Source: Methylocystis echinoides
GTDB taxonomy: Bacteria > Pseudomonadota > Alphaproteobacteria > Rhizobiales > Beijerinckiaceae
Direction: 5' to 3'
NCBI RefSeq assembly: GCF_040687965.1
Contig: NZ_CP156084.1
Coordinates: forward strand, 1,750,501-1,814,500
DNA: 64,000 nt
The notes beneath the pieces were generated by a model. That model was not told the DNA's origin. It worked only from the letters and a program-made list of their open reading frames with translations, and made no database searches. A program made the translations under genes and the position numbers. Below, piece after piece: positions 8,180 to 10,303 of this stretch. The first letter of the stretch is position 1. Each line of letters opens with the position of its first letter.

Positions 8180-8421
8180 ACGCCACGCGGCTGCGGTCGC
8201 CCTCGCGTCTAGAGTCGGGAGAGGGGCGCGACGCCGCCGCTCGCTCACAATTTGCATTAGCAGGGGTCGCAACGATCAAGGAAACGCTTGTTTCGGTGAA
8301 ACTACCTAATCCGTTCGGGCGCCTATCCGAATGGGCGCCTGTCGGCCTGTCTGGCGCGCGTTACGTCCTTCATCGAAGCTCCTGAAGACAGCTTCGCGTT
8401 GCAAAAGTGGAAGGACTCATC

Positions 8422-8721
8422 ATGAAGAAGCTTCTTTTGATTCCTGTCGTTCTGGCTCTTTCGACCAGCTTCGCATTTGCTCTTGATCTCAGCCAGACCG
8501 CGAACGTCACCCAGGCGATCGGCAACACCTCGAAGGGCGGCTTCGCGCTCAACAAGGCGTGGGTGGTGCAGGCCCAGGTCCCGGTCAACCAGTGGCATGG
8601 CGATCTGTCGCAATCGGCGACCGTTAATCAGTCAATCGGCAACACCTCGAAGGGCGGCGCCGCCATCAACAAGGCGACCGTGATTCAGGCGCAGGTTCCG
8701 CTGAACTTCGGCAATTGGTGA
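8422..8721 (+). CDS. Secreted protein with two curlin-like repeats
   Basis: 99 residues; ATG with AAGGA upstream. Signal peptide MKKLLLIPVVLALSTSFAFA, then two near-identical repeats of about 39 residues: DLSQTANVTQAIGNTSKGG... and DLSQSATVNQSIGNTSKGG..., each ending in VVQAQVP or VIQAQVP. The SxxxxxQxxGN pattern resembles the curlin repeat (Ser, Gln, Gly, Asn at fixed spacing) that stacks as beta-strand-turn-strand in bacterial amyloid. The 117-base repeat is also visible in the DNA. Two repeats is few for a curlin; it could be a nucleator or minor subunit. The amyloid role is inferred. Nearby genes encode more small exported proteins, but no csgG, csgE or csgF is visible. Confidence 0.7.
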   Translation: MKKLLLIPVVLALSTSFAFALDLSQTANVTQAIGNTSKGGFALNKAWVVQAQVPVNQWHGDLSQSATVNQSIGNTSKGGAAINKATVIQAQVPLNFGNW

Positions 8722-8752
8722 GAGCCGTCTTGAGACCCTCCTGATTAGATCG

Positions 8753-8783
8753 GATCGCGGCCCGAGGCCGCGATCTTCTCTTC
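8753..8783 (+). terminator. Hairpin terminator after the curlin-like gene
   Basis: A perfect 10-base-pair stem (GATCGCGGCC / GGCCGCGATC) with a 3-base loop, followed by a T-rich run (TTCTCTTC). It lies 31 bases after the stop. The T tract is interrupted, so termination may be partial, which would allow some readthrough into the next small gene. Confidence 0.6.
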
Positions 8784-8844
8784 GGGCGCGGCGCCCCTGC
8801 CTGTCGCCATCGGCGCATCGGCCGAAAAACGAGGAGCACAAGAA

Positions 8845-9177
8845 ATGCGATATTTCATCATTGCGGTTCTCGTCTCGATCGGGGCCGGTGGAGCGCAGGC
8901 GCAAAATTTCCTGAGCGTCAATCCGAGCTTCGTCGGCGTCCAATTCAGCAATCCGCTGGTGAGCGCCACCGCCGGCGCGCAATTTGGACATAACAATACG
9001 ATCGCGACCCAGCAGAACAGCCTCGCCAATTATTTCGCCGTTCAGCAGGTCGCCGTCGGCAAGCCGGGAAGCTCGCTTTCCAATACGGCGACAGTCGGCC
9101 AAACAGGACCTCAAAGTTATACGGGCCTTGGTCAGGCCATCGAGACCTTGCCGCTTCTGCCGGCGGGTCATCCCTGA
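8845..9177 (+). CDS. Secreted Gln/Asn-rich, curlin-like protein
   Basis: 110 residues; GAGGAG upstream of the ATG. Signal peptide MRYFIIAVLVSIGAGGAQA, cut before QNFLS. The mature part is rich in Gln, Asn, Ser and Gly, with irregular curlin-type spacing: QFGHNNTIATQQNSLANYF, then VQQVAVG and SNTATVGQTG. This supports a second amyloid-like subunit next to the repeat protein upstream. No cysteines in the mature part and almost no charged residues, also typical of such subunits. Curlin assignment is by eye and moderate. Confidence 0.65.
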   Translation: MRYFIIAVLVSIGAGGAQAQNFLSVNPSFVGVQFSNPLVSATAGAQFGHNNTIATQQNSLANYFAVQQVAVGKPGSSLSNTATVGQTGPQSYTGLGQAIETLPLLPAGHP

Positions 9178-9267
9178 TGAAAGCTGACGCGAACGTCCTT
9201 TGAAAACGCCGCGGCTGGCGTTTGCGCGCCGGCCGCAAGGGATTTTCGAAGGCTTCAGGAGGTTTCG

Positions 9268-9540
9268 ATGCAAAATCAAAAGCGCGGCGTCGCCCTTTTT
9301 CTTTTGATTCTGCTCGCGGGGCCCAACATCGCCTTTGGCGACGTGCTGATCGCTACGACGACTGGCGCGCAATCGATTAGCGTCACCGACGTCAACGGCG
9401 TCGTGCGCGCGACCGTCAACGGCGTTCCCGTCGCGACGCCATATAATCGACACGGGACAATCATCAAAATCGTTCCTGGCGGCAAAATCACAATGCCGTC
9501 CTCCTCCTGGCGCGCGAGGGAAATGGATTCTGGGCGCTAG
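9268..9540 (+). CDS. Small secreted protein, third of the cluster
   Basis: 90 residues behind an excellent ribosome site (AGGAGG, 5 bases from the ATG). A signal peptide (basic QNQKR, hydrophobic LFLLILLAG, cut near AFG) precedes a 65-residue mature region, predicted mostly beta-strand with many Val, Thr and Gly (ISVTDVNGVVRATVNGVPV). It ends in a basic tail. I recognise no family. Position and size suggest a partner of the two curlin-like proteins upstream. Confidence 0.6.
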   Translation: MQNQKRGVALFLLILLAGPNIAFGDVLIATTTGAQSISVTDVNGVVRATVNGVPVATPYNRHGTIIKIVPGGKITMPSSSWRAREMDSGR

Positions 9541-9594
9541 ATGAGGAGATTTTTTCAGCTTCGAGCGTTAACAAATAAAAAAAGTTCGACAACG

Positions 9595-9966
9595 ATGGAT
9601 GCGGCACTCACAACAGAACATGCAGGCAATTGCGCACGGATCGATCGGCAATGGCGCGCGGCGAAACACGCCATCCTTGCCTATCACGTCGGCGCCTGGC
9701 GGGTGGGCGAGTCGCCCCTCGACGCGCTCGCGCGCGCACTCGACCTTCCGCGCGAGGAGATCCTGGCGGCCCTGGCCAATCATCGCGCCGAGCGCGACGA
9801 GCTCGACGCTCTGTCCGCCTGCCTCGGCCCCGGCTGGGCGGAGCTCGCCGGGCTCAGCATCAAGGGCGGCGTCTCGCTCGCCGTGACGATGGTGAACGAA
9901 AAGCTGGCGCGCGTGCCGCCCGAGGTGCGGACGTTCTTTGGCGCGCCGCGAAAGCTCGAGCCGTAA
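9595..9966 (+). CDS. Hypothetical cytoplasmic protein, 123 aa
   Basis: Soluble helical protein without a signal peptide. Residues about 35-55 (GESPLDALARALDLPREEIL) look like a helix-turn-helix of the sigma/MerR type, but this is only suggestive. The start is uncertain: ATG 9595 lacks a clear ribosome site, while an in-frame ATG at 9541 directly follows the previous stop and could be translationally coupled, adding 18 residues. It might regulate the small secreted-protein genes it follows; that is inference from position. Confidence 0.5.
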   Translation: MDAALTTEHAGNCARIDRQWRAAKHAILAYHVGAWRVGESPLDALARALDLPREEILAALANHRAERDELDALSACLGPGWAELAGLSIKGGVSLAVTMVNEKLARVPPEVRTFFGAPRKLEP

Positions 9967-10060
9967 GGGAGTCCAACGGCTTTGCGACGGCGCCGCTTTA
10001 CGAGGCGGGGCGCCATCTGCTAGCGACGGGCTACGCTTCAAAAAAAACCAAGGTCCTCCA

Positions 10061-10303
10061 ATGCGTATGTCAGCATTTTGCGCGGCTTGCTGCCTGATCT
10101 GGGCGCAGGCCGCCTCGGCGCAGCAGGTCATCAATCCCACTGTTCTCGCCCCCTCGGCGCGTCGCGCCTTGCCGCAGGGCGGGGTGATCGTCGAGCCTCC
10201 AATAACCGGCCGGCGCCTGGATCGCTTTGCGCGACCTCGCCCCCATCAGCCGCGCCGCGTCGCTCCGATCCACAACCATCGTCACTTCATCGGCGAGCAC
10301 TAA
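10061..10303 (+). CDS. Small exported protein, basic mature region
   Basis: 80 residues. Signal peptide MRMSAFCAACCLIWAQAASA followed by QQVINP. The mature 60 residues are Pro/Arg/His-rich (RRLDRFARPRPHQPRR, HNHRHF) and likely disordered. An AAGG lies about 9 bases upstream of the ATG. It is the fourth small exported protein between 8.4 and 10.3 kb. No family recognised. Confidence 0.5.
   Translation: MRMSAFCAACCLIWAQAASAQQVINPTVLAPSARRALPQGGVIVEPPITGRRLDRFARPRPHQPRRVAPIHNHRHFIGEH

Follow-up and report, generated by a model that had tools for sequence, protein, structure and literature searches.

Five small genes, g1 to g5, lie within a 64,000-nucleotide stretch of Methylocystis echinoides DNA (contig NZ_CP156084.1, positions 1,750,501 to 1,814,500 of the forward strand; hereafter the window). 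We consider it somewhat probable that g1 and g2 belong to a divergent curli-like system in which an exporter of the two-partner-secretion type (TpsB) takes the place of CsgG. The curlin part of this proposal is based on sequence kernels, invariant glutamines, the ranking of a g2 profile and the matches of a related subunit in another genus to the Curlin_rpt, CsgB and CsgA models; the exporter role is drawn from linkage and co-occurrence only. The candidate exporter is encoded in the same genome (G000, 4.35 Mb) at a second site about 1 Mb away, the hub (locus L041), and g1, g2 and g4 recur as a cassette at scattered positions.

Kinship with curlins was assessed using the kernel N-x-Ψ-x-Ψ-x-Q as given in a 2023 survey (PMC10192328), with N widened to N/Q/S after inspection of g1 and signal peptides cut crudely at residue 20. 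The g1 protein carries four kernels (residues 25, 44, 64 and 83) compared with 0.50 in shuffled sequences (p 0.0015), and g2 carries five, two of which overlap (residues 50/51, 62, 80 and 91), compared with 0.55 (p 0.0005); the window copies of g3, g4 and g5 lack kernels. The same test gave p < 0.05 for 15 of the 17 g1 and 12 of the 13 g2 paralogues tested, as well as for five of six g1 relatives and four of six g2 relatives encoded at hubs, and the third genes of the hubs in genomes G015, G054 and G018 contain two kernels each. All four kernel-final glutamines of g1 are invariant across 16 aligned g1 proteins. A preliminary description of this DNA had proposed four consecutive exported proteins forming a fiber locus, two of them with a curlin-type pattern and one built of two 39-residue repeats. 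The pattern is borne out by these counts, and the repeats are those of g1. Signal peptides were recognized by eye in g1, g2, g3 and g5, but the helix-turn-helix (HTH)-like g4 sits between g3 and g5, so that the exported genes do not form a strictly consecutive run of four, and g3 and g5, free of kernels, show no resemblance to curlin.

A profile of g2, built without proteins from G005, G006, G015, G022 and G054, was tested against 269 proteins predicted in 42 loci, a curlin-enriched set, 30 of these loci having been picked for holding curlins. Its top ranks were taken by four distant hub g2 proteins of the same genus (2.1e-10 to 4.7e-7), followed by two subunits of G054, a genome of another genus (5.5e-5 and 3.3e-4), and by ordinary curlins of loci L130 (1.7e-4), L126 (0.0022) and L112 (0.0035). 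A g1 profile, applied to the same proteins, recovered the four g1 proteins of same-genus hubs (1.8e-6 to 0.013). One hub subunit of G054 (L180:11682-12065) reached 26.5 bits with Pfam Curlin_rpt, above the cut-off of 20.7, and matched the CsgB and CsgA models at 1.5e-7 and 3.4e-6, respectively, below their equivalog cut-offs. Curlin kinship is well supported, for g2 by the profile and for g1 by its kernels, and the kernels together with the profile ranking point to curlin rather than Fap.

The preliminary description had named structure prediction of the repeats as a check. An AlphaFold2 model of g1 from five sequences was β-stranded, with one kernel in each of the strands 23-33, 41-55, 62-72 and 80-91, but of low confidence (mean predicted local distance difference test (pLDDT) 66.7). 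Foldseek placed the amyloid FapC on top at a non-significant E of 0.089, and in VIA-align the CsgA fibril took the top row (Z 3.9, root-mean-square deviation 7.8 over 58 residues), closely followed by rows for SufB/SufD. These matches are consistent with curlin kinship but are no evidence on their own. PDB sequences were also searched, using profiles of g1, g4 and the transporter as well as the sequence of the transporter itself, and yielded nothing useful.

At the hub of G000 (G000:C1:2786001-2806000), one g1 copy is divergent from the gene of a 1,175-residue transporter with Pfam matches to POTRA_2 (4e-6), ShlB (1.2e-6) and two OMP_b-brl stretches. Homologues in G054, G015 and G005 match the same families, POTRA_2 of G015 scoring 19.3 bits, below the cut-off of 24; hub transporters range from 1,134 to 1,180 aa. 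Judged by its domains, the hub transporter is a protein of the two-partner-secretion type (TpsB) that carries two small outer-membrane barrels as a fusion. G005, G006, G015 and G022 share one gene order: regulator, transporter, divergent g1-g2, followed by a Cyclase-like, a membrane and an L,D-transpeptidase-like gene, the last three names resting on likeness by eye to the genes of L041, on which alone Pfam was run. The hubs of G000 and G018 show the same core plus extra regulators and copies, and those of G005, G006 and G022 have g1-g2 without a g4 match. In G054, the transporter is accompanied by five small divergently transcribed genes, one of which scores above the curlin cut-off, with three weaker matches. 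Four NarL/LuxR-like regulator genes surround the hub in L041 (at 3786, 6857, 12621 and 18837 of the locus), two of which match GerE in Pfam. The hub LuxR-type regulator matched the CsgD model at 6.6e-12 but fitted other response-regulator models more closely, MadR giving the best match (2.9e-21).

Strong matches to the transporter and matches to g2 were found in the identical seven genomes of a 39-genome genus sample; a further genome, G027, has no g2 and a single weak match to the transporter (2e-14). CsgG (PF03783) had no match in G000 or G005, the hub genomes searched, CsgE, CsgF and CsgH not having been searched for; the lack of csgG that the preliminary description had noted in the window extends in this way to the whole genome. 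CsgG is present in 15 of 149 genomes of the family, and we infer that G054 was part of that sample and CsgG-negative. Proteins with a two-partner-secretion (TPS) domain (PF05860) were absent from G000, G015, G017 and G018 and occurred away from the hub in G005, G006 and G022, and also in the hub-less G001 (4/39). As the search of G000 yielded no TPS-domain protein, an interpretation as plain two-partner secretion was dropped.

With the three best candidates scored per genome, related TpsB proteins were detected at 1e-20 in 20 of 397 genomes of the order, G000 and G054 included. The others are mostly of single length, and two of those read adjoin very large open reading frames (ORFs; L181 and L182). 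When 25 TpsB loci were inspected together with 1.5 kb on either side, only the G000 transporter had a neighboring small ORF with at least three kernels, ORFs running off the ends being missed by this search; the G054 curlins were found in a wider stretch. Around the more common kind of curlin locus in the order, no such transporter was seen (1.5-kb flanks of eight loci, six of them curlin loci). The multi-barrel fusions of Methylosinus and Methylocystis in PMC4827864 were rejected as relatives, being of another kind (alginate-exporter family), with no mention of ShlB in the available excerpt.

An 18-base element near AGCCRAAARGGCGCCTAT sits 79-106 bases upstream of g1. A position weight matrix (PWM) derived from 17 copies in G000 and G018 gave scores of 25.9-27.7 at the corresponding position of all four hubs outside the training set (G005, G006, G015 and G022), where the next site reached at most 14.4. 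Across the window, the element before g1 is followed by a runner-up of 14.5, 16 bases upstream of it, and then by 13.2. In IUPAC form, the element matched 11 times in 4.35 Mb, always before g1 (11 of 12 copies), compared with one match in a reversed control; the pattern was drawn from these very sites, so that its informative part is the zero matches elsewhere. The twelfth g1, second of a tandem pair, has a variant element. G018 gave five pattern matches, four before g1 and one before a solitary g4, and four hub genomes one extra match each outside the hub, the three inspected being at unrelated genes. Nine hub-less genomes of the genus gave six matches at unrelated genes versus four for the reversed control, which is about chance level. 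Nearly all copies share the element and so probably form one regulon.

The preliminary description had assumed a self-contained locus with its own regulator. This view does not hold, as g1-g2-g4 is a repeated cassette with eight copies along which the HTH-like g4 travels, and the candidate exporter and the LuxR-type regulators are located in the distant hub. At E 0.01, g1 matched 12 times in G000, 10 times in G017, 8 times in G018 and once, weakly, in G022, and in none of the other 35 of 39 genomes; the hubs of G005, G006 and G015 contain more divergent g1 genes that this search misses. G000 further contains nine intact copies of g2, a tenth that is broken and matched in two pieces, and eight copies of g4, each downstream of a g1-g2 pair by coordinates; the remaining g1 copies are solitary or in the hub. 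Cassette neighbors vary from copy to copy, and one g1 copy (L043) adjoins a gene set that looks type-I-like by eye. With regard to the conservation of gene order that had been suggested as a check, g1-g2(-g4) is kept, but the set of four exported genes is not. Within the family, g4 matched in one of 248 genomes, a sample that held G005, G006 and G022, which have no g4, and not the g4-bearing G017 and G018. Neither g1 nor g4 matched any of 72,556 plasmid records, a collection that may lack records close to this genome. Some plasmids of Methylocystis and Methylosinus contain DNA resembling one of the cassette stretches, mostly insertion-sequence genes.

The closest cassette pair, on contigs C1 and C2, shares 96% identity across 1,344 nt that start 111 bases ahead of g1 and end with the stop codon of g4; inspection by eye revealed no target duplication or terminal repeat at its edges. 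Near the C2 cassette, locus L046 holds a broken second g2 (G000:C2:122201-122468) and, around 127-130 kb of C2, an IS21-type istA/istB pair. A simple Nei-Gojobori count on chosen G000 and G018 copies, signal peptides included, gave median ratios of nonsynonymous to synonymous divergence (dN/dS) of 0.33 for g1 (91 pairs), 0.21 for g2 (36 pairs) and 0.19 for g4 (27 of 28 pairs); g1, g2 and g4 are under purifying selection. Between the copies L045 and L046, dS is 0.08 in g2 and 0.65 in g4, and this gap suggests mosaic exchange between them. In G018, a solitary g4 behind the cassette promoter (L210, G018:C2:2583424) occupies a place orthologous to that of the full cassette L045 in G000: both flanks can be aligned (83% over 1,405 bases, 78% over 1,351 bases), and g1 and g2 are missing, as they would be if this lineage had either lost or never gained them.

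Table 1. Features of the window locus and sites of the NPTVLAP motif (window positions unless a contig is given).
Feature	Position	Strand	Description
Promoter element ATCCGAATGGGCGCCTGT	8325..8342	+	97 bases upstream of g1; PWM score 23.4
Inverted repeat CGAAGCT..AGCTTCG, tentative	8374..8396	+	g1 leader; arm 7, p ~0.05
g1	8422..8721	+	99 aa, predicted exported curlin-like subunit; two 39-residue repeats, four kernels
g2	8845..9177	+	110 aa, predicted exported divergent curlin; kernels and g2-family profile
g3	9268..9540	+	90 aa, small exported protein; zero kernels
g4	9595..9966	+	123 aa, small HTH-like protein without signal peptide; cassette member
g5	10061..10303	+	80 aa, small exported protein; NPTVLAP close to mature N-terminus
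NPTVLAP sites	window 10061-10303; G000:C1:291654, 493915, 1037244, 2799902, 2801340		

None of the window proteins was placed in a confident family by the Pfam, NCBIfam and PHROGs scans, and no confident match to an unrelated family came up that would have spoken against the curlin-like pattern first described. Within the regions compared, relatives of g3 were found only in the cassettes L049 and L055 of G018 and G017 (44% identity), and no relationship was detectable between g3 and the third gene of the G015 hub. Matches of the g4 protein to transcription regulators were weak at best (PHROG E 0.055; PDB XRE E 0.58), and the g4 structure model, helical but unreliable at pLDDT 45.7, was discarded as too poor. 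At g5, a simple gene finder prefers an antisense ORF. As to the leader inverted repeat, several copies, though not every one, share a stem of the GAAGC/GCTTC type, which falls short of significance in the majority of the 23 upstream regions. Comparing the locus with an empty site was unsuccessful: the downstream photolyase gene has different upstream neighbors in the three genomes read.

The g5 protein shares the motif NPTVLAP close to its mature N-terminus with the hub transporter and three other small exported proteins; a further small exported protein (178 aa, L041) has the motif inside. Its coding pattern has six forward matches in G000 and none in a reversed control. Three of the five small NPTVLAP proteins are encoded within 2.9 kb of g1 or g4, and the other two 94 and 497 kb away. 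The motif may have a docking or plug role. An outer-membrane-barrel-like protein of G018 (L053:4775-5995) and G017 (C12:22170-22283) also contains a g1-like repeat, inserted between Gly-rich and Pro-rich runs and matching at 4.9e-6 and 4.6e-6. This protein has no Pfam match, barrel and loop position having been read by eye; it is a possible surface-displayed nucleator.

Our working model, built from sequence comparison, is that g1 and g2 are divergent curlins, i.e., short exported subunits of N/Q-x-Ψ-x-Ψ-x-Q strands, and that an enlarged inner turn would give the two repeats of g1 a period of 39 residues instead of about 23. The subunits would reach the periplasm by Sec export, given the signal peptides read by eye, and would cross the outer membrane through the TpsB/ShlB-type hub transporter replacing CsgG. 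They would then assemble at the surface into β-rich, probably amyloid, fibers, perhaps nucleated by curlin repeats on outer-membrane barrels, and the regulon might be driven by the NarL/CsgD-like hub regulators. The window locus would be one scattered copy in which g4 may act as a local modulator. More tentatively, we put forward a specific form of this model, in which a curlin-family amyloid leaves the cell via an Omp85/TpsB-type transporter with extra barrels and not via CsgG, is barrel-nucleated in some species and has a dozen co-regulated subunits that could form composite fibers.

Several observations weigh against the proposed system. Pfam Curlin_rpt (PF07012), the check named at the outset for curlins, had no match for g1 or g2 or in the whole genome with a positive E. 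coli control, and no window protein reaches its cut-off. The g1 profile did not separate ordinary curlins from noise among the 269 proteins, the g1 model is of modest confidence and has no significant structural match, and two repeats are few for a curlin, given a surveyed range of 4 to 62 (PMC10192328). The G054 hub lacks the promoter element (best site 13.4). Concerning the exporter, genomes that are related do not provide independent instances of linkage and co-occurrence, the CsgG result covers G000 and G005 among the hub genomes and not G006, G015, G017, G018 and G022, and the transporter could serve another partner in G005, G006 and G022, where a TPS-domain protein is present.

This last point would fit a different reading, which we consider rather unlikely: the curlin-like subunits exit by another route (type I or an unrecognised channel) or remain in the periplasm or outer membrane, and the hub TpsB serves an unknown partner or is a barrel-bearing adhesin. 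TPS-domain proteins elsewhere in three of the seven hub genomes and the type-I-like neighbors of L043 are what one would expect from it, yet it leaves unexplained the exact co-occurrence in 7 of 39 genomes, the divergent adjacency and conserved order, another genus included, and the lack of TPS-domain proteins in the remaining four hub genomes. In another reading, which is improbable, g1-g2-g4 would be a repeat that is selfish or driven by gene conversion, serves no needed function and owes its spread to recombination or neighboring insertion sequences. A 96% identical pair on two contigs with edges before g1 and at the g4 stop, the broken g2 and IS21 genes near the C2 copy, and the unequal silent-site divergence of g2 and g4 in one pair are in its favor; however, dN/dS is far below 1, 11 of 12 g1 copies have the exact promoter pattern, no recombinase is predicted between g1 and g4, and the edges show neither target duplication nor terminal repeat by eye. 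The many divergent paralogues, each with a small cytosolic gene, also recall kin discrimination, with g1/g2 as secreted signaling, toxin-like or recognition peptides and g4 as an immunity or regulatory partner. Conserved kernel positions, purifying selection, hubs with g1-g2 and no g4 match in G005, G006 and G022, and the persistence of a solitary g4 in G018 make this very improbable.

The hub transporter is a concrete candidate exporter for one CsgG-less lineage and makes the exporter question testable by a single gene deletion; the more common curlin loci in the order are left unexplained by the hub. According to a 2012 survey (PMC3521004), unnamed "alternative proteins" were inferred for Alphaproteobacteria with curlin genes and no recognizable export genes, which the hub transporter would fit; the 2023 survey gives 1,033 CsgA genomes (2%) without CsgG (PMC10192328). 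In the open-licence PMC literature, we found no description of curlin or curli paired with two-partner (ShlB, FhaC, TpsB/POTRA), Omp85 or type V secretion.

FhaC/ShlB transporters belong to two-partner secretion (type Vb), and curli gene sets comprise csgBAC/csgDEFG in E. coli, where CsgB is the nucleator, and the csgA-csgH-csgB type in Alphaproteobacteria. The hub transporter shares POTRA_2 and ShlB with two-partner secretion but is fused to two OMP_b-brl barrels and has small curlin-like neighbors, a TPS-domain partner not having been found in G000. With Fap, the likeness is FapC as the top, non-significant Foldseek match of the g1 model, whereas the g1/g2 kernels and the g2 profile point to curlin (Fap genes were not searched for). 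The system differs from curli in the TpsB-type transporter in place of CsgG, not found in G000, in its 39-residue repeats, few per protein, in its many dispersed subunit cassettes, and in a gene order unlike the curlin-CsgH-like-curlin arrangement of other families in the order (CsgH named by eye). What it has in common with curli are small exported kernel-bearing subunits, two kinds of which are adjacent, and a LuxR-type regulator at the hub.

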